Shown here: positions 1,887 to 37,700 of the stretch, in pieces
Layout of the letters: the number at the start of each line of letters is the position of its first letter
How positions within the stretch are numbered: the first letter of the stretch is position 1
Source of the DNA: Watersipora subatra
Lineage: Eukaryota; Bryozoa; Gymnolaemata; Cheilostomatida; Watersiporidae
Direction: 5' to 3'
NCBI RefSeq assembly: GCF_963576615.1
Contig: NC_088711.1
Span: forward strand, 34,398,121-34,462,120
DNA length: 64,000 nucleotides
The notes under the pieces: model-generated
Seen by the model: the letters and a program-made list of their open reading frames with translations, nothing else
Databases searched by the model: none
Told to the model about the DNA's origin: nothing
Made by a program: the position numbers and the translations under genes

Positions 1887-4800
1887 ATGAACCGTCAGCT
1901 GCTTCTTCTGGCTCTTGTAGTGTCTTTATTGTTTATTGGTAAGCATTATTTCGCTGCCATCAACAAATGTTGTTAAACAATGTTTGATTGGCACCAAACT
2001 AGATACGCCACCGAAAGCTTGATTTTCCGATAGTTGCATGTGAAGTTACCAGTATTTTCTTTTATAAATGACTTTTACACTTGTCAGTTTTTATCTTGAT
2101 TATTTATCGAATAAACATGTTTTGAAGGGGGTGCTGTTGCCGGAGACAATGATGAATCTGCTGACGTCGATGCATCTGAAGATGCATTAGTGGAAGACGA
2201 TATTGGAAAAAGTCGAGATGGTTCTCGTACGGATGATGAAGTCGTTGCACGGTAGATCATTATACATTATTACCATATGGGACACTGCCATATCTGCTCA
2301 TCTTTTGCTTGCAGGTTAACAAACGTCCCAGTTGTGACTAGAAAAACAGTATTTGTTTTAGAGACAAGGGAATGCATTATTTTAAAAATAGGACATAAAC
2401 GTCCCAGACTGTTAAAAGTATTGTGGGCTTTGTGTTTTTATATAATTTGTTTGCTTAGTGTTTATTTGTTTCTTGGTATCTATCATGTCGACATTTTCTT
2501 GCAGTGAAGAAGAAGCCATTAAATTGGATGGTATGAGTGTTGCTGAAATGAAAGCTTTGCGTGATTCATCGGAAAAGCATGACTTCCAGGCGGAAGTTGA
2601 TAGAATGATGAAGCTCATTATCAACTCTCTGTATAAGAACAAGGAGGTAAGCTAGATTTATCATCTATCGACTCTCACTCAGTCTTAGCAAGAGTATGAA
2701 TGTTTAAAACGAGGTATGATAACCTTACAAGTTTTTAATGTGGCAAATTACTTGCTTTTGTTTTAAAACAAAATTCAAACTGTTAATCATCTTGTTTAGC
2801 AATATGCCAACTTGTAATTAACCGTATATATATCAGATTGGTGTGCCCAGTCAGTTGTTAATGTTATCCTGTCGCATACTCTTTTTGGGTTTTGGAGGTG
2901 ATCCTATTACTACAGATATACATGCGTGTATGTTTTTATATCTGTATGATTGTTCTGAAACTTGAAAATAGGCTGATATCAGAACACTTTAAATGTTTTG
3001 CCTTATTGTTTATACTAAGAATAATAAGTTAAATTAAGCAAAAACAATGTTACGAATAAATTTGTGAATCCTTACGACCATTAAAATGTCACAAGCTGTT
3101 TTGATTTTTTTAGATCTTCCTGAGAGAGTTGATATCAAACGCTTCAGATGCTCTGGACAAGATTAGATTCCTTTCACTCACGAATAAAGATGCATTATCT
3201 GCTGTTGAGGAATTGACAATAAAAATCAAAGCCGATAAGGACAATAATATGCTCCATATTACTGACACTGGCATTGGAATGACAAAAGAAGATCTTGTGA
3301 AAAATCTTGGTACGATTGCCAAATCTGGCACTAGCGAATTCTTCTCCAAACTCAATGATGCTAGCGCTACAGAAGCGAGCGACCTTATTGGACAATTTGG
3401 TGTCGGATTCTATTCAGCTTTTCTTGGTGAGTGTAATGTCCTGCAGCTGAGTACTTGCACCCTAGATTAATCTATCTCTGTATTTATTCTTCTTTTAATT
3501 TGGATTACAAGTGATACTTTAGCAGTATTTGCTTTGCACTACCGTAAGTCTACATGAATATTTATACAAGCTGGGCCTCCTGTTGTAATGCAATAGTTAT
3601 TAACATTTGCAGAGTCTTGCTGACCCGTCTGTGTATTAAACTACCTAGCGCTGCTATCTATAAATCAGTTGCATCGTTGATTGCATGATACTTTGCACTT
3701 GTGGAATAGTTTAACAGTGCCTTATATATAATGGAGCTAAAGTATACACGTATATTGTGTTTTCAATGATGCCTACCGTCTAGATGTTATTAGCCATTTG
3801 TGAGTCTTAACGAAAGCAATGCTAGTTTTGTGAAATCGGCAGTAATGTTGTCTTGCAGTGGCTGATAAGGTGGTTGTGACATCTAAACATAATGATGATG
3901 ACCAGTATGTATGGGAATCAGACGCAGCCAGTTTCAGTGTAGGCAAGGATCCACGAGGCAACACTCTTTTGAGAGGCACTCAAATAACGTAAGGGCTCTT
4001 TTGTGCATTGTAACTTTTAGCGCAACTGCTTAATGGGGCAGGGCAGTTAGTGCTGCCCGGGTACCATTAATAAGATATTTATAGCAAAGATAATTATTAG
4101 TAAACTGAACAGCAACATCTGATGTTCATTTTCTAGCATAATGCAATATTCATGCCATGTTGACTTTTGACCTGCGTCTTTAAGGTTAACTTTTTTGAAA
4201 ACCTAAAACTGATGATAGGTTTAACATAATTTTATGTCTTTGCGCATGTTATTACCGTGCCTTCGTAAAATTAGTTAAAATGTGCATTATCCATCAGACC
4301 GGATGCTGTAGTGGTGCGAGTTTACATTTTATTCCTGCATACAACTGTTCTATAGTCAGAATGAGATGTAAGTGGGAGAAAATATGAATGCTATATTTGC
4401 AAAAATGCTATTATTAGCCAAGCAAAAAAATCATTTTGCTTGGCCGATAATTGTCGATAATTTGTTGTTTTGCTGTTTCTATCTACCAACAAGTGATAAA
4501 ATACACAAATATGTAAGTTTTGTGACTGTTCTAAAGCGAATGTCTAAAGCATTTGGGAAGGTGTGAAGGTGATTGCTTAAGCAAAAACAACTTTTGGATT
4601 CATATTGTTATTGTTACCATTAAGTCGGAGTCGGGTCCAACATATCAGTAGATACATAAATTACATTTTTGTTGCTATTTAAATCGAATGCAATTAGTAA
4701 GTTACTTCTGTCAATGTTAGCTAATGCTTTTATTTTCTCAAATGTAGTATAATAGTAATGTTTTGCAGTACATATATGTATAATGGCTAAGTTTATTTTA

Positions 4801-7800
4801 TTAGATTTTGTTGCTTTGTTAAACATTGGGAATGGTGAATTTTTATTAATAAAAGATAAGACTTTTGACAAACATACCCATCTTTATATACATAGATTAT
4901 AAAGCACAAAATTTCGATCATCATCAATCTTCAGCAATCAGTTCTTTAACAAAAATGCCTCGTACCAAGATACTTGAATGGTTGCAGACTTCATCTTAAA
5001 GAAGAAGCTGCTGAATATCTTCAACCTAATACTATTAAAGACCTGGTGACTAAGTACTCACAGTTCATCAACTTCAACATCTACCTTTGGGAAAGCAAGA
5101 AGGAGACAGTGGAGGAAGCAATTGATGAAGATGAAGAACCGGTTGACAAAAAGGATGAAGCAACGGATGCTGAGGATGATGATGCAGAGGTTAGCGTTAA
5201 TCGCATATGCGACAATGTGGGGGGTTGATGGCATTGTAATGCTGCAGAACTAGTGTTGTCCTTTGACCTTTTTAGGTTGTGGAGGAAAGTGATGAGGATA
5301 AGCCAAAGACAAAGAGTGTGGAGAAGACTATTTGGGATTGGGTCCTGGTGAATGGCAACAAACCAATCTGGACCAGAAAGTGAGTTGACCTACTATTAAT
5401 AACACCTTGAAGATATAAAATTTTTAGTTATGTTATCGCTTGGATCATATGTATAGCACTGGTTTGGCAATGATTTAAAGATTTTAAACAACCGACTTAA
5501 CATATTTTTGTGTGTAGGTTGACTGAAGTACATGCACTTCATGCAAATTAGTTGTAGCACTATGCCAATAGTGGTCCTGTTTAATTTGTTTGAGGGCACC
5601 ATAACTGCTCTTAGACATGGTTATGGCTATTTTAGTGATAGTTATGTTGCCAATTGAGCATTATTGATAATAGAAAAAAAATGTTTTAACAAAAAGACGG
5701 AGAATTTTCCCAAACTAGAAGACATCAAGTAAGAGTTGAAAGTGAATTTTGTTGCATTTTGTGAAGATGGTGGTGTTCACCAGAAATCTTTCCTGCTGTA
5801 GCACATTCTGTGCTACAGCAGGAAAGATCAACTGTAGCACATTCTGTGCTACCTATGGTGATGCAAAAGAGAGCTAGAAAAATTGCACATTTATCAAATT
5901 AAATTTTTCAACATAATTTGAATCATTTAAAAAGCCTTACACATTAAAATTTTTGTAGAAGAATGGCAAATAGCTCTAATATTTTTTGTAACAATTTTCG
6001 TAAATGGTCACAATTCTTGAACAGCTGCTTGTTTAGTGTTACATTAGCCAAAGTGTGAATCAAGTAGATTCGTGTTGCTTGTGAATGGTTTTCTACTGGC
6101 TTGGTATGCCTTTTAGCTACTCCATGGTATTTTTTATAACCACAAAATGCTTTATTATTGTAGGGCTGGGGAGATTGATGATGACGAGTATAATGAGTTC
6201 TACAAGTCGTTTTCGAAAGATAGTGATGATCCACTGTCTAAAACTCATTTTACGGCCGAGGGTGAAGTGACTTTCAAATCCATTCTTTTCATTCCTAAGA
6301 ACAGCCCTGTGGACTGGCAAAATCAATCGAAGAACAAGGTAGGACTATCAGAATTAGAACCATTTTAGTAGTATTTGTTTTGTTTTATACACTAGCAGTG
6401 GCAATCAAAAGTATACTCAACATATTGCACCTGCCACCTTGCTGTAACCACACAAGTATGCATTTTAATTTATCAATAAAAGTATGAGTACAATTCAACC
6501 TAATACACACCATGAAACTGTTTTAAGTTGCGCTATTGTTGGTTAGCGAGCACAATTCTAACAACTTTTAAAATTTACGTAGTCCGAAGCACATAAAGCA
6601 ATACGCAAGAAAAATATTACGGCAATTCGCCATAGTAAATATGATGCAACTGACTTGATTGCGCTAAAGATGGCAACTCTTTCTACCACGGAACTTTTGC
6701 TGCTGAAAAGAAAATTGTTGTTAAAAAAGAAACGATTTTTAGCCATAGTGTCCGAACGATAAAAACCAACAATAGTGGCTAAGCAGTTGCATCATGTGTA
6801 CTATGTTGAACTGCACTTGTAATTTTATTGTCACATGTTTCTTGGACAATACTAATTACAAAAGCTGCCAAAATCGTGCTCGCTAATAACTCATTTAGCC
6901 AATTAAAAGCGTTTCATCGACGAATTCGGTGTGCATGCACAGCTCAGACAATTCTGTTCATTTCGTGATTTCGGTCAGAATGAACAAATAATTCGTTCAT
7001 TTCGTGATTTCGGTAAGATTGAACGAATAATTCGTTACGTGTGGCCGTACCTTTAGTCTTAATCAGCATTATACATTCTATGAACATTGTGTTACATACA
7101 ACTTGATCAAACATTGGCAATGCGATTTTCTAAACCATTTTGAACTGATTTATGAAATTTAGTTTTTCAGCAGTTATTGCTGATTAGAAGTTATTTTATA
7201 TTGTCATGTGAATTTATACAATATAATTATTGCGCTCTTTTCTTTGCATCAATCAGGTTTATTAATAAGAGTTGCCACTTTTTTGAAATAATTTTATGAT
7301 TCAGATTTAACAGTGAGACGGATAAATAAATAATTCAATCAATGATGTTTGCATGTGGTGAAAGTTGTTTTGCCCTTTTTGAACTATTAACTGACAATTA
7401 TTAGTTTCATGTCATTATAATAAATAGATATTGTAATCAATTTTGCTTTTCACCAGGCATTGGCAATTGTTAGGTTTGAGGTAATTTATCCCTATGACTC
7501 TGATCATGAACTGGTCTTCTACGCGTTGTTACTATGTAATATGTAAGCTATACATTCAGCATGAAATTCGCAATATTGACCTTATAACTTACTCAAACTT
7601 ATCTGTATGAAATTGGACATTAGTCTGCTAGATATTCATCAGTTAGGCCAAGCTGGAGTCTTGCAGGTTCTTCTGGTGCAGCAAATGTAAATACATGTTT
7701 TTGCATATTTTACATGTGTATGTCTGTAGAATTCATTTTCAGTGTCAGTGCCTAATCATACTACTCTGTTGTTCTATTCAGGGCAATATAAAAATGTATG

Positions 7801-10800
7801 TTCGTCGAGTATTTATTACGGATGATTTCGACGACATGATGCCCAAGTACTTGTCATTCATCCGCGGCATTGTCGACAGTGATGACCTCCCCCTAAATGT
7901 CTCTAGAGAAACCCTTCAGCAACACAAGCTTCTTAAAGTCATCAAAAAGAAGCTAGTAAGAAAGGCTCTCGACATGATAAAAAAAATCAATGATGAAGAC
8001 TATGAACAGTTTTGGAAGGAATACAGTACCAAGTATGTTACTGTGATGTCAGTGTCCAATGGGTTTTAACATTTCCAGGCCATTTAGTTTAAACTGCCTC
8101 TTTTGCACAGCAGTGATTGTGTGGTCAATAGTTGTGCTAGTAACATCAACTCTAATTAGTTATTTAATTACTACTGCAGTTGTTGCAATCACTACCAGTA
8201 CTAATTTGAAATCTTGTTCACTGCAGGCTGCTGCCTTAGTTATGTCTGTACATATTTATGTTTAGTTCGATACTAAGCAGGGATAGTTTGATAGTAAGCA
8301 AGGCTTACACTAAATGTTGTGGAAGAGATTGTTTAAGTCGGATACTTTTATCTACAAAAATACATGAACATGATTGTGAAAGAGAATGATTGGGGAATGT
8401 TATGAGGTCATTAAGAATGAATGTACGAAGCAGATGTCTAGCTTTTCAGGTAGCATCGACTGCTTCTCTCATACTTAGAAATGGTTTTGTGCTGGCAATT
8501 AGGATGCTGCTCAGTAAATCGCATAGCTAACTGATGCCTGCTAACCTTGTGCTGCTGCCTGTTAGTGTATGCATTATGAATAGTATTCTTTTGATAATGT
8601 TGTTCCTGCCAAAGTCAATTGCAATGATGATCTTTTACAGTCGGATGCCTTATGCTGGTCATATATAATTGTCTGGATTTTTAAGGCATAAAAAAGGTCA
8701 CAATCTAGCGATCAGCTGCAGTCTTTCATTGTTTTTAATGTGTTTGTTTCGTCTGTTTGTTTGCAGCGTAAAACTGGGAGTTATTGAAGATCATGCCAAC
8801 AGGACTCGTCTCTCCAAACTGTTGAGATTTAAATCATCAAATGATGAAGAAAAGGGTTGCAGTCTTGCCGACTATGTTTCGCGAATGAAGGATAAGCAAG
8901 AGCACATTTATTTTATGGCTGGTGCTAGCTTGAAGGAAGTGAGCAGCTCTCCATTCGTTGAAAGATTACTCAAAAAAGGCTACGAGGTTTGTACTAGCGA
9001 TAATAGATACCTAATCTGTGATCAGAACTGACCATTGTTATTTTGTTGCCATCATCTAAGAACTTGTGAGATTGTGGCTTCACTCAAGATAATCAGTACA
9101 GTGAAGATTTGCTACATCCATATGCAAGGCTTTAGGTGCACATGTTGTAGGTTAGTGTACACTAGAGGTCTTTTTCTATTAAAAATAGTTTGAAAAAAAA
9201 TAAACCTTGATTAATAGTTTTACTCAGTTTGCGTGTTTGCCATGTTATTTATAGCAAGAGGTACTAATAACACATCTTATAGGTACTGTACCTCGTGGAA
9301 CCAATTGATGAATACACTATCCAAGCCCTTCCAGAGTTTGATGGCAAGAAGTTCCAGAACGTAGCTAAGGAAGGTTTGGATATCGATGGTGAAGACGGCA
9401 AGGAGAAGATGGAAATACTTTCCAAAGAGTTTGAACCTCTAACAACATGGCTTAAGGAGAAGGCCCTCTCCGACCTCATTGACAAAGCAACTGTCTCGGC
9501 GCGTCTAACTACATCACCATGTGCTCTTGTGGCTAGTTCATATGGATGGGCTGGCAATATGGAGAGAATCATGAAATCACAGGTAGGGTTGTTCTTATTT
9601 CGCTTAATCTCTCACTACAGACTCAGTGATGGATCATTCTTTTCTTCTAGGCTGCCAGGGCTGGTGAAAATTTTACTTAACTCTTTATAGGCATATGCTA
9701 AGACTGGAGATGCCAACAGCGACTTCTACTCCTCTCAGAAGAAGATCCTGGAACTGAACCCTCGACATCCTCTTGTCAAGGAATTGAGATCTCGTGTAGA
9801 CGCTGATGAGGATGATGCAGCTGCCAGCGAACTGGCAATGGTTCTCTTTGAGACAGCAACCCTGCGATCAGGATATACCCTCAAGGATACATCAGCCTTT
9901 GCAGAAAGAGTTGAGAAGATGATGAGAAGAAGTCTAGGGGTCAGCTTAGATGAACCAGTGAGTATTTTTATTACTGCACGGAACCAGTGATGGCAGCATT
10001 TACTAGCTTGATAGTTCTAACCAATAGTTCTTACTCGCCGATAGTTACAGTTGTGCACAAACTGTTTCGTCAGGTGGAGGAGGAACCAGAAGAGCTTGTT
10101 GAGGATGATGAGGATGCAGAAGAAGTCACGGATGATGATGATGTCTCGGAACCCCCGGTGCCTATTGATGAACAGCCAGTAGATCAAAAGCTGACCTCCT
10201 CAGAACACGAAGAGGTAAATTCTCATTTAATACATTGTTGGGTATATTCGCTGGTTTTGCGTTGCCCTCTTTTCAGCGTGTCCCTTTGTAGTTGGCAGTT
10301 GAAATATATTGTTGTTTCTTCATGGCAATAAACAGGAAAAATTGTAATACATGAGTTAATTGACAGGTTGCTCGGATACTTGTGTTTGGAGATTATTTGT
10401 GTCGAAATATATTTGATATTTAGTTTCCATATCCACTAACATGCGAAGTTGTTTTTGAGACCATAGGATAACCACACTTGAACACTGTATTTTTACATGC
10501 CATGCAACATTCACTATCATACACTGACAGTAGAGCAAGAGCATTTAAACAACTTGCCACAACTGTTTTGAATTAAACTTGCCCCATTGAATAAGTGATA
10601 GTTGTTTGTTGTAAACCAAAATTCAAACAACTTTTAGACTTGGCTGACATATCTTTTCATGAAGCACGGAATGCTGCATTGTTGGTTGTGGCAATTTTTT
10701 TATGGAAGCATCTTGATTTTTACTCTGTAGGCATTAGCACCTAGCCCCATTGGCCATAGCTTTCTTGTGCATACATGTAGTCAAATGTGCCACCCTGTGT

Positions 10801-10962
10801 TTTCCCTGCATGATGCTGTGTGAATGCATTTGATTTTACTCATTCATAATTGTGCTTGTTTCTCTTGAGCATGGCAATGGTAAGAATGCCTGGTTGGTAG
10901 CATTTCTGAAAAGCTTGTGTTCTGTTTATTTGTAGGCTGATGATGTCCATGATGAACTGTAG
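1887..10962 (+). CDS. HSP90B1: Endoplasmin (GRP94), ER-lumen HSP90 chaperone
   Basis: ATP-dependent HSP90 paralogue that folds secreted and membrane client proteins in the ER lumen and binds calcium. Fourteen exons with matching phases: 1887-1938, 2128-2251, 2505-2646, 3114-3426, 3859-3988, 4988-5189, 5276-5379, 6164-6338, 7782-8032, 8767-8986, 9283-9582, 9691-9957, 10074-10214, 10936-10962. The product is 815 residues (human 803). Visible features: a signal peptide ([18 protein letters not shown]); the GRP94-specific pre-N segment; the ATP-binding N domain with [12 protein letters not shown] (about 111-122), DTGIGM (157-162) and [10 protein letters not shown] (202-211); a long acidic linker rich in E and D (about 290-340); the middle domain with [12 protein letters not shown], whose catalytic Arg is about 456; a C-terminal dimerisation domain; and an acidic tail ending HDEL, the KDEL-receptor retrieval signal, on its own 27-base last exon. 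All HSP90 ATPase residues I checked are intact. ERSE-like elements sit upstream. Confidence 0.97.
5786..5828. repeat. Perfect 20-bp hairpin in HSP90B1 intron 7
   Basis: Two exactly complementary 20-base arms (5786-5805 and 5809-5828) flank a TTC loop. A shorter copy of the inner stem, GTAGCAC-ATTCT-GTGCTAC, follows at 5834-5852. Such a compact duplicated hairpin may be a MITE remnant or simply a palindrome; the stem is short for a typical animal miRNA precursor. Confidence 0.6.
6543..6886. mobile_element. Short MITE-like element in HSP90B1 intron 8
   Basis: About 345 bp bounded by imperfect terminal inverted repeats beginning TTAGCGAGCACAATT on the left and matching TTAGCGAGCACGATT on the complement of the right end. 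No coding capacity is recognised. Target-site duplication is unclear. Confidence 0.5.
6956..7034. repeat. 39-bp direct tandem duplication in HSP90B1 intron 8
   Basis: Two adjacent copies, beginning GTTCATTTCGTGATTTCGGT at 6956 and 6995, with few differences. Each contains a GTTCA...TGAAC inverted pair, so the unit itself can fold. Confidence 0.65.
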
Positions 10963-12109
10963 CCTTATAAAATCATATTGGTTCATATAGGAATTTCTCT
11001 TCTTTTTTGTTGTGCACAGACTCAATTCTACAACAGCGTTATTTATAGGCAATGCTAATTTTTGTGTACATTTCTGTAAATTTCTTCTATATATCCACTA
11101 CTTAGCCATTCCAACTGTGCTATTATTGGTATGCACTAATTTCTCAAATGGCATTCTACACAATACAACATTCATCCTAATTACTGTAACTACGTTCCAT
11201 TGAGCAGCCAATAAAAAGTCCCTCCTGAACGCTGATAATACTGGTGTTGTCTCGAATGTAAACAGTCTGTAACGAAATAAAATGCTATTTAACTGACACT
11301 CTTTGTTTTGCTTTTTCACTGAAGCTAACTGTGTGCCTGTAGCCCATAGTAACCTTAATAAATGACATGCAGGCGGGAGATCCATGAGTATTTCTGCTAC
11401 AATTGAGTTGTGAGCCTTAGCAAGAGTTAGAGGCCAATGGTAAAATTATTGAAGACACCACTAGCAAATCTTACACAATGTCTTTAATAAGCAACAAAAA
11501 ATTGGTACATTGTTCTTCCTGAGCTTGGTTGATCTCTTCTGGAAAAGCTACATAGCTTTGCAGCATGGTAGCACAGCATGTTTGTGGTGAGTTTACAGGT
11601 ATTTCTCTATTAGCGGAATGCATTGCGTGTGATGAGAATACCACCGGAGTCAGTATGTGCAAGTCTGCTGCTGTCCAACTACATACAATGACAAATGCGA
11701 TTGAAATGGTCAAATGTTTGCCAGAATTTTTTTTGTGAAATCAGCTTAATGCTAAGCATTTAACTAATTCACATGCACCACTATATTAGTTAGTTCATGG
11801 TATATAGCTCAACCATCCAGTACACCGAAACCTGAAGTCTGTTCATTACCAAAGAATTTTGATAGCTTAATTTTCACATTATTTATAAGATGTTAGATGA
11901 ATATCACTCACTTAAATTTAAATTAGATTAAAATATAAACCTATGTCACCTGTATAACAAATGCACAATAGGTTTGCCGTAGTATTGTCCTCATTGAAAT
12001 TTTAGACTGGACAACAAAGTAGAGCAAAATCAGATGACTGCTAAGCTAGGGATGACCAAAAATACTGTATATTATAAAGCGATTTACATGATTTGCTTGA
12101 ATTGTTTAG
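10963..12109. other. HSP90B1 3' UTR and intergenic gap before the Asp-rich gene
   Basis: Two AATAAA candidates for HSP90B1 polyadenylation occur at 11210-11215 and 11276-11281, about 250 and 310 bp after the stop. The rest should hold the promoter and perhaps a first (signal peptide) exon of the Asp-rich gene, but I found no convincing ATG-plus-hydrophobic exon with a good donor on the plus strand. Confidence 0.5.
11210..11281 (+). promoter_or_regulatory. Candidate HSP90B1 poly(A) signals
   Basis: AATAAA at 11210-11215 and again at 11276-11281, the first canonical hexamers noticed after the HDEL stop codon. Which one is used cannot be told from sequence. Confidence 0.5.
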
Positions 12110-15100
12110 ATGTTTCAATATGGAAAAGGACTCGAGCAGCAAGCACCTCCTAAGCGTAGGCTCCTCAGTATTGAGGAAAGTGAAGACGTGGAGGATAGGG
12201 AAACCATGGATTTGAATAGGAATGGTATTCCTGATTACCTTGATGTGGATACGGATGGAGATGGCCTTCCAGATTACCTTGATCTGGATGATGATGGAAA
12301 TGGAGTGCTCGACGAACATGAGCAAACTTGGCGTGGTAAGTCAGTAAAAAAATTGAAAGGTCTACACTGTATATAAATCATTCTAGCCAGTGAAACAACT
12401 AAGTAGAAGTGAAATGGGAAGAAACAGAATCTTTAAATATAAGGGTATATGTGCTTTAGAAGCATGCACTATTCAGAATGGTGAACTAAAGACCACATGT
12501 TTGGCCTTGTAAAAAAAGCAACCTGCTGAAAAAATTTTGTTCCAAGCATAGGAAGTCGAGTAACGAAAACAAAGAATTTATATTGTATTACATAGGTACA
12601 ACCTCTTAAGTATTTCTAAAAGGATAGGGTGAAGATATGGTAAGAAAGGCATTTTTTGTGACAAGTTAGAGATGTATTCAACGGATCTGTACTGATGTAT
12701 TTACGAAATATGGCTGTCAAACAGTTTTAAAGGTGTCCTGGCAGCCTTAGAGTTTCATCAATCGTCTAATTTTGGTCATTAAATGTCAAATTATGTATTG
12801 TAGATGAAGTTGCTCTTCACTAAAACGTCTGAATCAATTGGTTTCTTTAATAAATAAAATGAAGCTACATATGTTATATCGGATAAATTACAAGTTTTTA
12901 TGCTGTTCACATTATGACTCTTCATGTTTGTAAATGTTTTTCATTTGTTTCGTTTTTTTAATACGTGTACAGTAATACTTGACTTACGAGTGCTCCAACG
13001 GACGAGGAACTTGAGATACGAGCCAGCTTTTAAGCAAGTTTTAGCACTAACATACGAGCCATGTTTGAGATACGAGCACGTGAGTCAGTTGCCAAGTATG
13101 CCGGAGGTGTTTTATGAGAACAGCATCACTCTGTATTTTTCAACTGCTCAGGTTATACTTTTGTACCGTGTTTTTTTTTGCGCGCGATTTTCAGTGCAGA
13201 ATTATGAGAATTAAAAGTACGGTGCGTAGACCGCAAGTTTGCCAGTACAATGAAAAATAATGGAAAGAAAAAGCAAATGATAACAATGGGTATTAAACGA
13301 AAAATTATTGTAAAATATGCGAAATGTGTATGCGTGACTGAGCTAGCTCAGCAATATGACAGAAATACATTCACAATTATCAAACAGAAGGATTATACTC
13401 AGGGCATTTAGTTTGTAAAAGGACTAACCATAGTTTCTAAACGGCGCAGCGATCTTCACGACCGCTGATGGAGAGACTGCTCAGGCATTGGATAAAAGAT
13501 AAACAATTGGCTGGTGACAGCGTAACTGAAACGATGTTTCAATAAAGGCGAAAAGGCCGGTGGTGAAAAGGCGAAAAGGCCTATGTGAAAAGGCCGGTGC
13601 TATCTATCAAAACTATAAAAATAGACTTTCGGGCAAGTTGGCTAGTGGTCGTGCATTAACCCTTTGTGACAACACCAGTGTTCGTCCTAATCGCAACATG
13701 TTGAAAAGGTGACAAAGGCAAACGTCCTTAGATAGGTTTATCTTAAAACAGACGGCTAGTCGTGAAAGCAAAACAAAGGAAAATTGGCTAACCAGCAAGA
13801 AACTTCAAACTATGAACGCCGAAGAAATTTTAATTACGTTAAGTTAAAAATGAAAGTTTGTTTTTAAGTTTGTTTTTTAAGACTTTGATAAATGCAAATT
13901 TATCAAATTCAACTGTTGTAATGAAGGATAACACTTATATCTCCCTCTCTGGCAAATGCTAGCGTTAGCTGCTACTGCATGTATTTAATTTTACATTTTA
14001 ATTAATCACATTTCCTTGCATTATTTTTTATTTGTTGCTTTTTGAAAGCATATAGTAAGTTAAGACAATAACCAACATGCTCTTTTTGTTACAATATCTA
14101 GTTTTGAGTGTTTTATTTGCATTTTGTTAGAGTATGGAAACCAATCAATATATCTTTAATTGTTCTATATATAAATAAATTGCACCAACATGCGAGTAAA
14201 TTAACAATTGAGCTTTGTCTCGGAACGCATTAAGCTCGTAAGTCGAACTATGACTGTAGTTATATTTTTTGTATAGCAAAAAATGATTAATATATCCTCA
14301 AAGAGTTCGACATGAGCCATTGTTTGGCGTTGACAGGTTTTTTATGGAAGGCGCTAATGTATTGGAGAAAAGAGTTGCAGGTCTATTGAGAACCATGCCA
14401 CAAGTGAAATATGCAAGAAAACAAAAGAACCTATGCTAATTTTATATTGAACTATATGAACTTGCTAAATGTACATAAATATTTGCGCTAGGATCTAGGT
14501 AGATAGCTCTTGAGGAATTAGACATTAATAAAATTTGGGTGAAAGTTGAATCAATGATCATTTAGAGAAAGATACAGATGGGGATGGTATACCAGATCAC
14601 CTAGATGAGGATGGAGACGGAATACCAGATCATTTAGAGAAGGATACTGATGGGGATGGTATACCAGACCACCTGGATGAGGATGATGATGGAGATGGAA
14701 TACCAGATCGTTTAGAGAAAGATACAGATAGAGATGGTATACCTGACCACCTAGATGAGGATGATGATGGAGACGGAATACCAGATCATTTAGAGAAAGA
14801 TACAGATGGGGATGGTATACCAGACCACTTAGATGAGGATGATGACGGAGATGGAATACCAGATCATTTAGATAAAGATACAGATGGGAATGGTATACCC
14901 GATCACCTGGATGAGGATGATGATGGAGATGGAATACCAGATCATTTAAAGAAAGATACAGATGGGGATGGTATACCTGACCACCTAGATGAGGATGATG
15001 ATGGAGATGGAATACCAGATCATTTAGAGAAAGATACAGATGGGGATGGTATACCAGACCACCTAGATGAGGATGATGATGGAGACGGAATACCAGATCA

Positions 15101-18100
15101 TTTAGATAAAGATACAGGTGGGGATGGTATACCAGACCACCTAGATGAGGATGATGATGGAGACGGAATACCAGATCATTTAGAGAAGGATACTGATGGG
15201 GATGGTATACCAGACCACCTGGATGAGGATGATGATGGAGACGGAATACCAGATCATTTAGAGAAAGATACAGATGGGGATGGTATACCAGACCACCTAG
15301 ATGAGGATGATGATGGAGACGGAATACCAAATCATTTAGAGAAGGATACTGATGGGGATGGTATACCAGACCACCTGGATAAGGATGATGATGGAGATGG
15401 AATACCAGATCATTTAGAGAAAGATACAGATGGGGATGGTATACCTGACCACCTGGATGAGGATGATGATGGAGATGGAATACCAGATCATTTAGATAAA
15501 GATACAGATGGGGATGGTATACCAGACCACCTAGATGAGGATGATGATGGAGACGGAATACCAGATCATTTAGAGAAAGATACTGATGGGGATGGTATAC
15601 CAGACCACCTGGATGAGGATGATGATGGAGATAGAATACCAGATCATTTAGAGAAAGATACAGATTGCGATGGTATACCTGACCACCTGGATGAGGATTA
15701 TGATGGAGATGGAATACCAGATCATTTAGAGAAAGATACAGATGGGGATGGTATACCAGATCACCTAGATGAGGATGATGATGGAGATGGAATACCAGAT
15801 CATTTAGAGAAAGATACGGATGGAGATGGTATACCTGACCACCTGGATGAAGATGATGATGGAGACGGAATACCAGATCATTTAGAGAAAGATACAGATG
15901 GGGATGGTATACCTGACCACCTGGATGAGGATGATGATGGAGATGGAATACCAGATCATTTAGATAAAGATACAGATGGGGATGGTATACCAGACCACCT
16001 AGATGAGGATGATGATGGAGACGGAATACCAGATCATTTGGAGAAAGATACTGATGAAGACGGTATACCTGACCACCTGGATGAAGATGATGATGGAGAC
16101 GGAATACCAGATCATTTAGAAAACGATAGTGATGGGGATGGTATTCCTGACCACCTGGATGAGGATGATGATGGAGATGGAATACCAGATCATTTAAAGA
16201 AAGATACTGATGGGGATGGTATACCTGATCACCTGGATGAGGATGATGATGGAGATGGAATACCAGATCATTTAGAGAAAGATGCAGATGGAGATGGTAT
16301 ACCAGACCACTTAGATGAGGATGATGATGGAGATGGAATACCAGATCATTTAGAGAAAGATACTGATGGGGATGGTATACCAGACCACCTGGATGAGGAT
16401 GATGATGGAGATGGAATACCAGATCATTTAGAGAAAGATACAGATGGGGATGGTATACCTGACCACCTAGATGAAGATGATGATGGAGATGGAATACCAG
16501 ATCATTTAAAGAAAAATACAGATGGGGATGGTATACCTGACCACCTAGATGAGGATGATGATGGAGATGGAATACCAGATCATTTAGAGAAAGATACGGA
16601 TGGAGATGGTATACCAGACCACTTAGATGAAGATGATGATGGAGATGGAATACCAGATCATTTAGAGAAAGATACAGATGGGGATGGTATACCTGATCAC
16701 CTAGATGAGGATGATGATGGAGATGGAATACCAGATCATTTAGAGAAAGATACGGATGGAGATGGTATACCTGACCACATGGATGAAGATGATGATGGAG
16801 ACGGAATACCAGATCATTTAGAAAAAGATACAGATGGAGATGGTATACCTGACCACCTGGATGAAGATGATGATGGAGACGGAATACCAGATAATTTAGA
16901 GAAAGATACAGATGGGGATGGTGTACCTGACCACCTGGATGAGGATGATGATGGAGATGGAATACCAGATCATTTAAAGAAAGATACAGATGGAGATGGT
17001 ATACCAGACCACTTAGATGAAGATGATGATGGAGATGGAATACCAGATCATTTAGAGAAAGATACAGATGGGGATGGTATACCTGATCACCTAGATGAGG
17101 ATGATGATGGAGATGGAATACCAGATCATTTAGAGAAAGATACAAATGGAGATGGTATACCTGACCACATGGATGAAGATGATGATGGAGACGGAATACC
17201 AGATCATTTAGAAAAAGATACAGATGGAGATGGTATACCTGACCACCTGGATGAAGATGATGATGGAGACGGAATACCAGATAATTTAGAGAAAGATACA
17301 GATGGGGATGGTATACCTGACCACCTGGATGAAGATGATGATGGAGATGGAACACCAGATCATTTAGAGAAAGATACAGATGGGGATGGTATACCTGACT
17401 ACCTAGATGAGGATGATGATGGAGATGGAATACCAGATCATTTAGAGAAAGATACGGATGGAGATGGTATACCAGACCACCTGGATGAGGATGATGATGG
17501 AGATGGAATACCAGATCATTTAGAGAAAGATACAGATGGGGATGGTATACCTGACCACCTAGATGAAGATGATGATGGAGACGGAATACCAGATCATTTA
17601 GAGAAAGATACAGATGGGGATGGTATACCTGATCACCTAGATGAGGATGATGATGGAGATGGAATACCAGATCATTTAGAGAAAGATACAGATGGGGATG
17701 GTATACCTGATCACCTGGATGAGGATGATGATGGAGATGAGACACCAGATCATTTAGAGAAAGATACAGATGGGGATGGTATACCTGATCACCTAGATGA
17801 GGATGATGATGGAGATGGAATACCAGATCATTTAGAGAAAGATACGGATGGAGATGGTATACCAGACCACCTGGATGAGGATGATGATGGAGATGGAATA
17901 CCAGATCATTTAGAGAAAGATACAGATGGGGATGGTATACCTGACCACCTAGATGAAGATGATGATGGAGATGGAATACCAGATCATTTAGAGAAAGATA
18001 CAGATGGGGATGGTATACCTGACCACCTAGATGAGGATGATGATGGAGATGGAATACCAGATCATTTAGAGAAAGATACAGATGGGGATGGTATACCTGA

Positions 18101-21100
18101 TCACCTAGATGAGGATGATGATGGAGATGGAATACCAGATCATTTAGAGAAAGATACGGATGGAGATGGTATACCTGACCACATGGATGAAGATGATGAT
18201 GGAGATGGAATACCAGATCATTTAGAGAAAGATACAGATGGGGATGGTATACCTGATCACCTGGATGAGGATGATGATGGAGATGGAATACCAGATCATT
18301 TGGAGAAAGATACTGATGGAGACGGTATACCTGACCACCTGGATGAAGATGATGATGGAGACGGAATACCAGATCATTTAGAAAACGATAGTGATGGGGA
18401 TGGTATACCTGACCACCTGGATGAGGATGATGATGGAGATGGAATACCAGATCATTTAGAGAAAGATGCAGATGGAGATGGTATACCAGACCACTTAGAT
18501 GAGGATGATGATGGAGACGGAATTCCAGATCATTTAGAGAAAGATACAGATGGGGATGGTATACCTGACCACCTGGATGAAGATGATGATGGAGATAGAA
18601 TACCAGATCATTTAGAGAAAGATACAGATGGGGATGGTATACCTGACCACCTGGATGAGGATGATGATGGAGACGGAATACCAGATCATTTAGAGAAAGA
18701 TACAGATGGGGATGGTATACCTGACCACCTAGATGATGATGGAGATGGAATACCAGATCATTTAAAGAAAGATACAGATGGGGATGGTATACCTGATCAC
18801 CTGGATGAGGATGATGATGGAGATGGAATACCAGATCATTTAGAGAAAGATACAGATGGGGATGGTATACCTGATCACCTGGATGAGGATGATGATGGAG
18901 ATGGAATACCAGATCATTTAGAGAAAGATACTGATGGGGATGGTATACCAGACCACCTAGATGAGGATGATGATGGAGATGGAATACCAGACCATTTAGA
19001 AAAAGATACAGATGGAGATGGTATACCAGACCACTTAGATGAGGATGATGATGGAGACGGAATACCAGATCATTTGGAGAAAGATGCAGACGGGGATGGC
19101 ATACCTGACCACCTAGATGAGGATGATGATGGAGATGGAATACCAGATCATTTAGAAAAAGATACAGATGGAGATGGTATACCAGATCACTTAGATGAGG
19201 ATGATGATGGAGACGGAATACCAGATCATTTAGAGAAAGATACAGATGGGGATGGTATACCTGACCACTTAGATGATGATGGAGATGGAATACCAGATCA
19301 TTTAGAAAGAGATGCAGATGGAAATGGTATACCAGACCACCTAGATGAGGATGATGATGGAGATGGAATACCAGATCATTTAGAGAAAGATACTGATGGG
19401 GATGGTATACCAGACCACCTGGATGAGGATGATGATGGAGATGGAATACCAGATCATTTAGAAAAAGATACAGATGGGGATGGTATACCAGACCACTTAG
19501 ATGAAGATGATGATGGAGATGGAATACTAGATCATTTAGAGAAAGATGCAGATGGGAATGGTATACCTGACCACCTGGATGAGGATGATGATGATAGAAA
19601 TGGAATACCAGATCATTTAGAGAAAGATACTGATGGGGATGGTATACCAGACCACTTAGATGAGAATGATGATGGAGACGGAATTCCAGATCATTTAGAG
19701 AAAGATACAGATGGGGATGGTATACCTGATCACCTGGATGAGGATAATGATGGAGATGGAATACCAGATCATTTAGAGAAAGATACGGATGGAGATGGTA
19801 TACCTGACCACTTAGATGAGGATGATGATGGAGATGGAATACCAGATCATTTAGATAAAGATACAGATGAGGATGGTATACCAGACCACTTAGATGAGGA
19901 TGATGATGGAGATGGAATACCAGATAATTTAGAGAAAGATACAGATGGGGATGGTATACCAGACCACTTGGATGATGATGGAGATGGAATATCAGATCAT
20001 TTAGAGAAAGATACTGATGGAGATGGTATACCTGACCACCTAGATGAGGATGATGATGGAGATGGAATACCAGATCATTTAGAGAAAGATACTGATGGGG
20101 ATGGTATACCAGATCACTTAGATGAGGATGATGATGGAGACGGAATACCAGATAATTTAGAGAAGGATACGGATGGAGATGGTATACCAGACCACCTGGA
20201 TGAAGATGATGATGGAGATGGAATACCAGATCATTTAGAGAAAGATATGGATGGGGATGGCATACCTGACCACCTAGATGAAGATGATGATGGAGATGGA
20301 ATACCAGATCATTTAGAGAAAGATACAGATGGGGATGGTATACCTGACCACCTAGATGAAGATGATGATGGAGATGGAATACCAGATCATTTAGAGAAAG
20401 ATACAGATGGGGATGGTATACCTGACCACCTAGATGAAGATGATGATGGAGATGGAATACCAGATCATTTAGAGAAAGATATGGATGGGGATGGTATACC
20501 AGATCACTCAGACGAGGATGATGATGGAGACGGAATACCAGATAATTTAGAGAAGGATACGGATGGAGATGGTATACCAGACCACCTGGATGAAGATGAT
20601 GATGGAGATGGAATACCAGATCATTTAGAGAAAGATATGGATGGGGATGGCATACCTGACCACCTAGATGAAGATGATGATGGAGATGGAATACCAGATC
20701 ATTTAGAGAAAGATACAGATGGGGATGGTATACCTGACCACTTAGATGAAGATGATGATGGAGATGGAATACCAGATAATTTAGAGAAGGATACGGATGG
20801 AGATGGTATACCTGACCACCTGGATGAAGATGATGATGGAGATGGAATACCAGATCATTTAGAGAAAGATATGGATGGGGATGGCATACCTGACCACCTA
20901 GATGAAGATGATGATGGAGATGGAATACCAGATCATTTAGAGAAAGATACAGATGGGGATGGTATACCTGACCACCTAGATGAAGATGATGATGGAGATG
21001 GAATACCAGATCATTTAGAGAAAGATACAGATGGGGATGGTATACCTGACCACCTAGATAAGGATGATGATGGAGATGGAATACCAGATCATTTAGAGAA

Positions 21101-22682
21101 AGATACAGATGGGGATGGTATACCTGATCACCTGGATGAGGATGATGATGGAGATGGAATACCAGATCATTTAGAGAAAGATACGGATGGAGATGGTATA
21201 CCTGATCACCTGGATGAAGATGATGATGGAGATGGAATACCAGATCATTTAGAGAAAGATATGGATGGGGATGGCATACCTGACCACCTGGATGAAGATG
21301 ATGATGGAGATGGAATACCAGATCATTTAGAGAAAGATACAGATGGGGATGGTATACCTGACCACCTAGATGAAGATGATGATGGAGATGGAATACCAGA
21401 TCATTTAGAGAAAGATACAGATGGGGATGGTATACCTGACCACCTAGATGAAGATGATGATGGAGATGGAATACCAGATCATTTAGAGAAAGATACAGAT
21501 GGGGATGGTATACCAGATCACTTAGATGAGGATGATGATGGAGACGGAATACCAGATAATTTAGAGAAGGATACGGATGGAGATGGTATACCAGACCACC
21601 TGGATGAAGATGATGATGGAGATGGAATACCAGATCATTTAGAGAAAGATATGGATGGGGATGGCATACCTGACCACCTAGATGAAGATGATGATGGAGA
21701 TGGAATACCAGATCATTTAGAGAAAGATACAGATGGGGATGGTATACCTGACCACTTAGATGAGGATGATGATGGAGATGGAATACCAGATCATTTAGAG
21801 AAAGATACGGATGGAGATGGTATACCTGATCACCTGGATGAAGATGATGATGGAGATGGAATACCAGATCATTTAGAGAAAGATATGGATGGGGATGGCA
21901 TACCTGACCACCTGGATGAAGATGATGATGGAGATGGAATACCAGATCATTTAGAGAAAGATACAGATGGGGATGGTATACCTGACCACCTAGATGAGGA
22001 TGATGATGGAGATGGAATACCAGATCATTTAGAGAAAGATACAGATGGGGATGGTATACCTGATCACCTGGATGAAGATGATGGAGATGGAATACCAGAT
22101 CATTTAGAGAAAGATATGGATGGGGATGGCATACCTGACCACCTGGATGAAGATGATGATGGAGATGGAATATCAGATCATTTAGAGAAAGATACTGATG
22201 GGGATGGTATACCTGATCACCTGGATGAAGATGATGATGGAGATGGAATACCAGATAATTTAGACAAAGATACAGACCAACTAGATGAGGATGAAATGGG
22301 ATGGGAAAGACTACTCATGGGAAATGGTGGCAATGCTAACAAACACGTCCGCAAAAGTAACAGAAACGGTGATACAAATTTTGATAAAGAAGGTAATGCG
22401 GAACATTTCACTTCTTCTAGCAGTAAAGCAAATGTACCATCTAGCAAAATCTCTGAACGATGTGAAAGCCTTTCTAATTCCATAACTGATGAAAGTGCAT
22501 CAGATATAGACAAAAAAACTATGGATGATGATTCTTTTATTCTTAAATTATTTGACTATGTCTCAGATTTGGTTTATGATGGACCTCCTGTTATAAAACA
22601 GCTCGTAGATGAATCCGGAACAAACGACGATCCAAGTTCACACACAGTGAAAATTCCAAAGAAACGGTGTTCGGTGAACTGA
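12110..22682 (+). CDS. Giant Asp-rich calcium-loop repeat protein
   Basis: Two coding exons are visible: 12110-12335 and 14566-22682 (donor GTAAGT, phase 1). Together they give about 2,780 residues. The first exon has a basic patch (PPKRRLL) then three diverged loops of the type [12 protein letters not shown]. The second holds about 99 units of 26 residues, each two 13-residue loops: [12 protein letters not shown] and [12 protein letters not shown]. This DxDxDGxxDxx[D/E] pattern is the metal loop of EF-hands, dockerins and thrombospondin type 3 repeats, so about 200 Ca2+ sites are predicted, with a net charge near -11 per unit. The C-terminus (about 140 residues from 22270) is non-repetitive, Ser/Asn/Asp-rich, without a membrane segment, ending CSVN. 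Frame is open throughout. No signal peptide is seen in these exons, so an upstream exon is likely missing; the ATG at 12110 lies right after a splice acceptor. Secreted or vesicular calcium buffering, matrix or biomineral roles are inference. Confidence 0.85.
12970..14256. mobile_element. Tigger/pogo-like DNA transposon in the Asp-rich gene intron
   Basis: Bounded by inverted repeats CAGTAATACTTGACTTACGA and, on the complement of the right end, CAGTCATAGTTCGACTTACG, with TA on both sides (12968-12969 and 14257-14258). TA duplication and the CAGT start are typical of Tc1/mariner-superfamily Tigger elements. It contains decayed transposase coding sequence (13250-13544) and is about 1.29 kb, shorter than a full element. 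Confidence 0.75.
13250..13544 (+). pseudogene. Decayed Tigger/CENP-B-like transposase N-terminus
   Basis: An ATG at 13250 opens a frame with [19 protein letters not shown] followed by [18 protein letters not shown], the first helix-turn-helix of Tigger/CENP-B/jerky transposases. After a stop, another frame (13462-13544) reads [15 protein letters not shown], the second CENP-B-type DNA-binding segment. A later fragment near 13720-13770 ([16 protein letters not shown]) resembles the linker of this family. Several stops and frame changes show it is dead. Confidence 0.75.
14556..22283 (+). repeat. 78-bp coding tandem array, about 99 copies
   Basis: The unit begins GATCATTTAGAGAAAGATAC and is 78 bp, so it codes 26 residues per turn. 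Rare units lack 6 bp (for example near 14605, 18735, 19275, 19970) or 3 bp (near 22075), and one near 19590 has 3 extra bases; every such change is a multiple of three. The Met variant (codon ATG after GAGAAAGAT) recurs at 20247, 20481, 20637, 20871, 21261, 21651, 21885 and 22116, nearly all at spacings that are multiples of 78 bp, showing block duplication. Copy number in an assembly of such an array may not be exact. Confidence 0.95.
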
Positions 22683-22948: not shown

Positions 22949-22954
22949 AATAAA
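22949..22954 (+). promoter_or_regulatory. Candidate poly(A) signal of the Asp-rich gene
   Basis: Canonical AATAAA, the first clear one after the stop codon at 22680-22682. Confidence 0.5.
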
Positions 22955-34700: not shown

Positions 34701-37700
34701 AACAAAGCTCAAACTGCAAGTGGTAATACTAAAGCAGCTCATACAGGAATGTAGCCTGCATGGCAGCCTGCTGGTCACTCTTGCATATCAGAAAACAGCT
34801 CAATAGAAATATATCATTGTTCAAAAAAAATTGTTTTGTAAGTAAAAGGCAAATGGCTTTTCAAAGTGCCGTTGAAGCTTGAGCTCAAGTAATTTTCAGT
34901 TTAGACTGAGTTACACTAAATATTTTATTCCACTCCTCCGCACATGAGCATACCCATCAATATGGTGCCAATACTTTCGCTTGTGTGTCTCTGACGGCAA
35001 AGTAACTATAAAAAACCTCTTTTTATTGATTATTACTTTATTCATTGTACTTTCTACTTATAATTTAAATTTGGATTTCTTTTTCGTACTTTATAAAGTG
35101 AATTTGTGTTAACGTTATGTGTACAGTATTTATGAGATAGTTGTTGTAGGAATGATTAAAATAAATTATGAATTGCCATGCATTTTTATAAAAATCTTCT
35201 CCAGCATACAATGTTTACATATGAAGCAGATTTTTGACTTAACTGAATATAAAGGGTTGACTGTAATTAGCTGAATATAAAGGTTTGACTGTAATTGGCT
35301 GAATATAAAGGTTTGCCTGTAATTAGCTCAATATAAAGGTTTGACTGTAATTAGCTGAATATAAAGGTCTGACTGTATTAAGCTGAAAAGCAACAAATGA
35401 TATCTTCTCTAATTCTAATACTTATAGACATTGGTATAAAGGGATAACTCCTATATCTATAAACATGGTATGGATAACTATAACACTTATAAACACTGGT
35501 ATGATGGTAGAGCTTCTATATTTATAAACATGGTATAAAAGGATAACTCATATATTCATAAACATGGTATGAAGGAATATCTATAACACTTATAAACATT
35601 TGTATGATGGGATAACTCCTATATTTATAAACATGGTATGAAGGAATAACTATAACACTTATAAACATTTGTATGATGGGATAACTCCTATATTTATAAA
35701 CATGGTATGAAGGAATAACTATAACACTTATAATCTTTGGCATGAAGAGATTACTCCAACACTTATATGAACATTGGCATGAAGGGATAACTCAATACTC
35801 ATAAATATTGCTGTGAAAAGATAGTATGACAATCAGCGTATCTTTCTCCAACAATTGAACCATTCGTATATAATTATTTGTATATAGGCGGTCCTTCACC
35901 AATGTTTAGCTTGATCAAAAGCGACTGTTGAAAGGACAAGTGTGGATTGCTACGCTGTGAAGCATATTGAGACAGACTAGTTTAGGTTTTCAGTAAGCTA
36001 GTTTGGTTAAGTTTGTTATTCATTTTTTATTATAGATTTATCATTTTAATTTTGTAGTTTGAATACTCGCTGACATGTGCAGTCTGCTCACGTACTGGTG
36101 ACCAAGAACTCCAGATACTCAAAAAATCCACTCAGGTAAAATCTTGGTTAACCTCTTCTTTTTTAATGCTGGTCAAGGTCAGTAGTTGATCTTATATTGT
36201 ACTCACCCTTTGCACCATTTGTATTTGTAGAAAGTCTATGCTTCCCCTAGTCAAAGGTCAATGGAGTCAAAAGGAACTGGAGAGTCTCTCGCATACCCCA
36301 ATATTTACTTCACTGTAGATAATTTCGAAGAGGTATAATTTTAATATTTTTGTATGTTATGCAAGCTGAAATACCTGTTGTCGCTTGTTCTCGCTCCATC
36401 TCTTTCCATTCCTATGCGCCTATCTATAAATATTTCTCATATGTATGTATTTGTGCCATATTAATATGGCTTAATCGCAGTACTCACACACAATACAGCT
36501 TGGTTGATGTATAAATATCCATTTAAATTAAAGGGGATGAAAAACTGTGACCGCAGAGAAAATACAAACGTGTTTGTAACATCTCTAAATATCTTTTAAC
36601 GAGTTTCACACAGATAAGGAACACTGGAAATGGATCAATAGTAATTGAAATAAGTAAAATTTGATAAAAAAAATTGCTATAAAAATACAATAAGTTATTT
36701 AAGTCCAGCTCATGTTTACTTAGAAGAAATTGTTGTACATATGTTTCATTTTTTCTGTATCAACTAGAAATGTTATAAAAAAACTTTGATGACAAAGAGA
36801 TGAATACATTATTTGTAACACGTCCGTGTTGAGGGAGTTTTATAGAAGTAAACAACTGCGAAACACAAGTAATCAATAAAAATGGCAAAGAATTACCACA
36901 ATTCATTAATTCCAAATGTACGAGTAAATTTATTACAGTGTAAATAAGGTTCTGAATAAAAAACAAATGATTTAATATTCTAATAAAAATGGTAAAACTG
37001 ACAATTACACCAAAATTAATAAACAGTGAACAATGCAAATTTCACTAATAAGCTCAATTTTACGAATGTTTATTTAAAACCAACCGGAATGCTATAAATA
37101 GAGAAATTTGTTATTTGCATCCATTTCTAAGCAGATTCCTAAGAATTAAAATTGGCGGATAACAGAAATTATTGCTAAAGATATGATATGATTTGACTTC
37201 TCTTTCATTAACCAACAAGCTTGCACACTTGTACACGGTGTGAATGAGTGGAACTATATGGTAATTGGCAAAGGTTCTTTTCATTGATCGCATGTAACAT
37301 TTTTTGATATAGTCGACAATGTTGACATGCCAATTTCAGAATATTACAGATTTAGATTAATACAAATTGTTCATCTCATTGTTTTTCTAATAGTGAATTC
37401 CACCGCAGTGAATGACATATTTTTTAAGGTATTTGAGGACATAGTGATAAGGGACAGTGAGATGGTGTGTGTGGAGCTGGTAGCCACAGACAGACATGGT
37501 GACTTTCAAGCTGTTATATTCATTGGCTCCATAAGGTACGAAGCTCTACGAAATGTCTTCGATTCCAAGGTGAGTCGCTGAGTTAGTTTTGTACCTGTAC
37601 AGTTTTGTTTCTATGTGTGTCAAGCGTTAATTTATTTAGAGATTTATTATACAACTACATACATGTAAAAATATGTAATTTAATCTTTTCTGTGTTAGCT

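Follow-up and report, generated by a model that had tools for sequence, protein, structure and literature searches.

A candidate 300-kDa calcium-binding chain of thrombospondin type 3 loops encoded by an expanded minisatellite in the bryozoan Watersipora subatra

We have described here the unusual properties of a gene in a 64,000-nucleotide stretch of the genome of the bryozoan Watersipora subatra (assembly GCF_963576615.1, contig NC_088711.1; C4:34398121-34462120), which is referred to in its entirety as the window. The gene occupies positions 12110 to 22682 of the window on the plus strand, and our model of it has two exons that together encode 2,780 residues from an ATG at 12110 (299.5 kDa), with three cysteines in all. 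We favor, with a probability of about 0.6, the interpretation that this is a real animal gene whose product, as judged from its sequence, is a nearly Cys-free chain of about 300 kDa in which some 199 thrombospondin type 3 Ca2+ loops follow one another in a near-continuous 13-residue register, and which would act as a high-capacity Ca2+ binder.

The array itself (14568–22265) is built from a 78-bp unit, of which Tandem Repeats Finder (TRF) reports 99.3 copies at 14556–22276 with 92% matches and, after rounding, 0% indels. Each unit encodes 26 residues, including 10 Asp, 2 Glu and 1 Lys, and is made of two 13-residue loops; an earlier reading of the same DNA (the original prediction) had described about 99 copies of a two-loop unit with 10 Asp and 2 Glu, and the copy number and composition agree with it. 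Alignment by codons divides the array into 101 segments, with 92 full 26-residue units that are represented by 69 distinct DNA sequences. The open frame at 14550–22682 runs for 2,710 codons without an internal stop and closes with a C-terminal tail and a stop codon, and it contains 180 loops of the strict form D.D.DG..D..[DE] and 196 of a looser form, values that become 181 and 199 in the two-exon model. The roughly 200 loops and charge near -1,000 that had been predicted are borne out by these counts and by an array charge of -1057 (Asp and Glu against Lys and Arg). Loop spacing in the two-exon model is exactly 13 residues in 190 of 198 intervals, with 80 in the longest such run, and Leu or Met is present at loop position 11 in 197 of the 199 loops and His at position 10 in 186. 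Gly6, Asp9 and Asp12 are invariant in the first loops of units (99/99), and a few changes occur in the second loops.

The array is protein-coding, with selection keeping its amino acids. We do not take the open frame as proof of this, because neighboring minisatellites and the array antisense strand are open too (several in the 200 kb of flanks for hundreds of codons, to a maximum of 776 at locus L048, and the antisense frame for 2,587 codons), and codon-phase tests were used instead. Among the 92 full units, minority bases number 51, 19, and 257 at codon positions 1, 2, and 3 respectively. In the sense frame 23 of 52 types of single-nucleotide variant are synonymous, compared with 25% expected when transitions are weighted 3:1, and the same 52 types read in the open antisense frame include 13 synonymous ones compared with 29% expected. 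Variants confined to one or two copies make up 27 of 34 replacement types and 9 of 22 synonymous types, the other 13 of the latter being present in more than two copies. Control arrays were taken from the window and 20 flanking loci (100 kb on each side) at a TRF score of at least 200, a period divisible by three and at least eight copies, which gave this array and 10 others. The codon-phase concentration of variants is 0.78 here (348 variants), and in the controls it is 0.65 (L064, 178 variants), 0.67 (an array with 3 variants), and 0.00–0.53 in the remaining eight. A run of 138 open codons, the length of the tail, follows 17 of 77,377 codon positions in 22683–64000 (six frames), and none of 20,000 base shuffles of the tail stayed open, so that the in-frame tail is unlikely to have arisen by chance. 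The alternative that the minisatellite is non-coding, and stays open only because its period happens to be divisible by three, finds some encouragement in the long-open flanking arrays and the open antisense frame, but we consider it very improbable in view of the codon-phase bias of the variants, the presence of two flanking segments in frame, the agreement of the splice phases, and the meaningful motif carried by the upstream exon.

We also note that open frames of hundreds of codons run through the minisatellite-like repeats at L048, L049, L057, L058, L064, and L084–L087, which have neither loops nor any further sign of coding, and long-open minisatellites of this sort are a trap for gene finders. 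The L064 array (L064:1318-3270, situated 61–64 kb downstream of the window) consists of 65 copies of a 30-bp unit, with an open frame of 592 codons on its minus strand encoding an SDTDTSIESQ repeat; it is possible that L064 is either a caution for the phase test or a further coding repeat.

The original prediction of a single 8.1-kb exon at 14566–22682 is correct as an exon model, but this is not the whole gene, since an upstream exon with three loops is located at 12110–12335. The upstream exon starts with MFQYGKG, ends with EQTWR, and is bounded by an acceptor (tttag|ATG) and a phase-1 donor (G|GTAAGT). Its 13-residue loops are diverged: the second differs from the first array loop by silent changes in six codons and by three residues, with four codons identical, and the first and third are further away with 6–8 residues changed. 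By itself the upstream exon matches NCBIfam BamM at 1.3e-4, far under the family cut-off, and Pfam TSP_3 at 0.0053 (16.8 bits, also under cut-off). The array exon, which includes the C-terminal tail and stop, is 8,117 nt long and has the acceptor ttag|AG; it cannot start earlier in its frame because of an in-frame TGA at 14547–14549. We infer splicing of 12335 to 14566 from these sites and their matching phase, as the donor at 12335/12336 and the acceptor at 14565 would create an in-frame junction codon, GAG. The tail (22266–22682, with its TGA stop at 22680–22682) is a unique segment of 138 residues whose frame is continuous with the array, and it matches nothing in Pfam at E≤1 or in NCBIfam at E≤0.1; its sole match in the PDB, an annexin with an E value of 1.2, was dismissed as chance. 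An AATAAA motif at 22949–22954 is a candidate poly(A) signal, and scanning the window for Rfam families and tRNA genes gave no hits. The intron (12336–14565) contains a probable transposon copy at about 12972–14258, with similar inverted ends and a transposase-like remnant recognized by eye, which we take to be of the Tc/mariner type.

The profile matches, obtained with the first 478 residues of the array, place the loop in the thrombospondin type 3 family and in neither the EF-hand nor the dockerin family. Both Pfam TSP_3 (PF02412; 9.4e-40, 134.5 bits with a cut-off of 25) and TSP3_bac (PF18884; 6.2e-23, 80.7 bits with a cut-off of 25) are matched, whereas no EF-hand is found at E≤1 in the same residues, the upstream exon reaches only 10.2 bits for EF-hand against a cut-off of 25.4, and no dockerin is found at E≤1 in the three segments scanned. 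A period of 13 residues would also be too short for the helices of an EF-hand. The original prediction had noted that such a loop chelates Ca2+ in EF-hands, dockerins, and thrombospondin type 3 repeats alike, and of these families only the last is upheld. Among proteins of known structure the array matches cartilage oligomeric matrix protein (COMP; 3fby, 2.8e-10) and, more weakly, BamM, thrombospondin-2, and thrombospondin-1, as well as, in a profile comparison, a bacterial OmpA-family protein (5wtl). A passage of PMC10702128 names Asp435, Asp437, Asp439, His441, and Asp446 of COMP as binding Ca2+, and associates changes of Gly440 with pseudoachondroplasia. These five residues correspond to loop positions 1, 3, 5, 7, and 12, and Gly440 to position 6. 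Other papers bear on the family in general, in that frequent evolution of the Dx[DN]xDG motif, aided by expansion of Asp-rich sequence, is described (PMC3123361), thrombospondin type 3 repeats of other proteins are reported to expand mostly toward the N-terminal side (PMC1553488), and PF02412 is listed among mollusc shell-related families (PMC8510874).

Several observations weigh against the interpretation that we favor. The pyrimidine tract of the array-exon acceptor is weak (0.53, compared with 0.71 at the last intron of the neighboring endoplasmin gene), and some copies vary at likely Ca2+ ligands, with D5N in three copies and D1N, D3N, D3G, D14N, D18N, and D22N in one each. The L064 control has a phase concentration of 0.65 on as many as 178 variants, and the p values for the variant types (binomial p 0.002 for the synonymous fraction, Fisher p 0.005 for the distribution of rare types) are rough, as they assume independence among variant types, an assumption violated by unequal exchange and by the shared history of the copies.

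If the gene is expressed as modeled, each loop would bind Ca2+ through positions 1, 3, 5, 7, and 12 as in COMP. The chain would presumably be an extended polyanion in the absence of Ca2+, and with Ca2+ it could condense to a slender, elongated rod carrying some 200 ions, or up to about 400 if there are two per loop. Two Ca2+ ions per loop are seen in thrombospondin structures, and thrombospondin type 3 repeats bind Ca2+ with low affinity. The likeliest job would be high-capacity, low-affinity Ca2+ binding, whether as a store, a buffer, or a Ca2+-stiffened tether, and the proposal that the protein could bind hundreds of Ca2+ ions is supported, as a candidate role, by the number of loops and the charge. 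As to its origin, we suggest that a 78-bp coding segment, equivalent to the paired-loop module of thrombospondin minus its Cys spacer, behaved as a minisatellite and expanded through the gain of entire units; unequal exchange would have kept the copies alike, and selection would have purged changes at Asp and Gly. Units differ from each other by a mean of 4.6–6.0 of 78 bases at lags of 1 to 30, with minima at lags 5, 13, and 3, and block copying inside the array is expected to give such a pattern, in which differences do not rise smoothly with distance.

As compared here, the loop family is a known one and it is the architecture and length that are unusual. Thrombospondin and COMP share the DxDxDGxxDxxD loop and the 13-residue spacing inside a loop pair, but thrombospondin has a Cys-linked spacer (of the NC...NPxQ kind) between pairs, whereas the array protein is without a spacer and has 3 Cys in 2,780 residues. 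A thrombospondin-like exon on contig C3 of the same genome illustrates the difference, in that a 13-spaced pair, DTDEDGLGDICDT/DDDNDGIPDFRDN, is followed by a Cys-containing spacer, and the first loop of the pair has Cys at position 11 where the array has Leu or Met. The thrombospondin C-terminal domain is absent from the tail (zero Pfam families at E≤1), and in the upstream exon neither it nor an EGF domain is matched. Thrombospondin contains 13 type 3 motifs, compared with about 199 loops here.

Among bacterial proteins, BamM (NF053691, PDB 9n2d) and MtsC (NF047638) have a similar loop-pair pattern, although the first 478 array residues score 152 bits against a family cut-off of 315 for the first, which holds only a short stretch of loops, and 62 bits against 350 for the second. 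A prokaryote scan with one repeated peptide pattern, in which runs were measured in the loop-richest open frame at each locus, gave at least 40 loci, with 54 loops in the richest frame and a longest exact 13-residue run of at least 32, in an Opitutales genome; exact runs at the other loci among the matches listed do not exceed two. The nearest architecture among those matches is this Opitutales OFTM35 protein (L020:6939-9269), which likewise has uninterrupted 13-residue loops in a run of 32 and is apparently Cys-free, but it is 776 residues long, with far fewer and more diverged loops, a signal-peptide-like start, and further non-repeat sequence at the C-terminus. Viral contigs yielded two loci with short loop stretches, one of which has a run of four.

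The original prediction knew of no described animal protein with this architecture and length, which is too strong as regards the kind of protein, given a Cys-free loop in the annelid protein Ofus.G011730 (the prefix presumably denoting Owenia fusiformis) and the continuous bacterial array. A peptide from an earthworm hydrolysate, identified by liquid chromatography-tandem mass spectrometry, is assigned to Ofus.G011730 in Table 2 of PMC11547318; it contains a DGDGIPD loop without Cys, and the comparison extends to this peptide only. To the extent that this table allows, it makes it likely that animal relatives of the loop exist and are expressed. As regards length and homogeneity the claim stands within the scope searched, since no equal was found among the prokaryote and viral loci and the literature, which included no animal protein set, and no animal protein with such an array is described in the open-licence PMC text searched.

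Within the W. subatra genome (783.7 Mb in 239 contigs), the upstream exon used as a query has 98 matches, all inside this gene, and the tail has one, to itself. A query of five units has at least 67 matches at E≤0.01 (150 of 304 candidates scored), of which this gene accounts for 33 (the array for 32 and the upstream exon for one), whereas the other 34 are matched at 18–33% identity in different parts of the genome. Five of these 34, in four stretches, were read and look like unrelated minisatellites with no loops in frames of more than 60 codons with more than 12 Asp, although at L086 the matching frame fell below the Asp filter and another was therefore examined, and the remaining 29 were left unread. 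The 200 kb of flanks contain no second loop array. Searching the genome with PF02412 reveals only two thrombospondin-like places, both on C3, and PF18884 gives zero, but such searches are insensitive, as both families miss the array in this setting and yet match it in hmmscan; a description of the gene as single copy therefore means only that no second copy was found. Searches of the genome with an annelid linker family and a mollusc haemocyanin family yielded no matches, and the controls for these two families were negative as well.

The compartment in which the protein would act allows several readings. In one, which we regard as doubtful, the polyanion is secreted and serves the extracellular matrix, adhesion, or the control of mineral, with Ca2+-loaded rods that would organize the matrix or act as nuclei for calcium salts. 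Such a reading specifies where and for what the chain would be used under the explanation that we favor, and is compatible with Ca2+ binding. Animal thrombospondins are extracellular, the Opitutales array protein has a start that resembles a signal peptide by eye, MtsC, weakly matched by the array, is named as a cell-cell cohesion protein, and low-affinity loops would suit millimolar Ca2+. Set against these, hydropathy alone reveals no signal-peptide-like start in the gene model, with a best 15-residue N-terminal value of -0.05 even when the MFV that could be added by a phase-0 donor (GTGAGT at 11587) is included, nor is a clear signal exon seen by the same measure in the approximately 0.75–0.9 kb between the preceding gene and the upstream exon. 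The preceding gene ends with a stop at 10960–10962, followed by AATAAA motifs at 11210, 11276, and 11357, and a weak signal candidate, MLIFVYIS (11052–11075, phase 0), lies within its presumed 3' untranslated region. The failure to find a signal peptide weakens a role in matrix or mineral, and while an extracellular location is possible, the sequence does not favor it.

A cytosolic or membrane-tethered Ca2+ sink, with a prenylated CaaX box and basic patch at its C-terminus, seems unlikely to us. The protein ends with CaaX-like CSVN, the Cys being fourth from the end and behind KKR, which together with the lack of a detected signal peptide would fit such an anchor, but a Cys at this position could be chance, and low-affinity Ca2+ loops would be mostly unfilled at resting cytosolic Ca2+. 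In a passage of PMC9141697 the canonical X is A, M, S, Q or L, I, F, a set from which Asn departs, and Ser is no aliphatic residue. An excerpt of PMC11304957 places CLIN, which also ends in Asn, among the yeast sequences with higher screening scores, which generally supported better growth as Rho1 variants and for which a mixed modified and unmodified population was suggested, and CSVN is absent from the main text of that paper. A more specific proposal, which in our view is decidedly unlikely, is an intracellular and possibly lipid-anchored 300-kDa polyanion whose approximately 199 loops lie at a membrane on its cytosolic face, so that a single molecule would constitute a Ca2+ store. The capacity of the store would depend on how many units it has, a number that could change as units are gained or lost in frame in the germ line, and perhaps also by splicing. 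The array does contain 345 YAG acceptor-like sites (339 in one codon phase) and 89 GTATAC donor-like sites (all in that phase), and internal splicing would thus mostly preserve the frame, but the weak pyrimidine tracts of the acceptor-like sites (median 0.35, best 0.59) count against it. We give least credence to a nuclear or DNA-mimicking polyanion in which Ca2+ binding is incidental; the charge of about -1,060 would suit it, as would the basic stretches PPKRR and PKKR close to the ends, but the exact loop pattern maintained in the first loops would be needless for plain acidity.

If expressed, the high-capacity Ca2+ binder that we favor would be a natural Ca2+ chain of high regularity, and its length would allow one to ask whether the 13-residue loop forms a rod without disulfides. 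It is also an example, in an animal, of a coding minisatellite that has grown under selection to a giant repeat. The gene may bear on bulk Ca2+ buffering and storage in animals, and the unit could be usable as a tunable Ca2+-binding polymer.

The gene directly upstream on the same strand (3114–10962) is a multi-exon gene for endoplasmin (GRP94, HSP90B1), with HATPase and HSP90 matches for two exons and a last exon that we read as 10936–10962, ending with the retention signal VHDEL. An endoplasmic reticulum Ca2+-binding chaperone is encoded beside a giant Ca2+-loop gene, an adjacency that could be fortuitous or could reflect shared regulation. Elsewhere in the window, an open fragment that resembles reverse transcriptase by eye is located at the left edge (3–635), and other minisatellites are present at 35239–35817, 38252–38716, and 40521–40892, with periods of 28, 34/69/103, 13, and 26.

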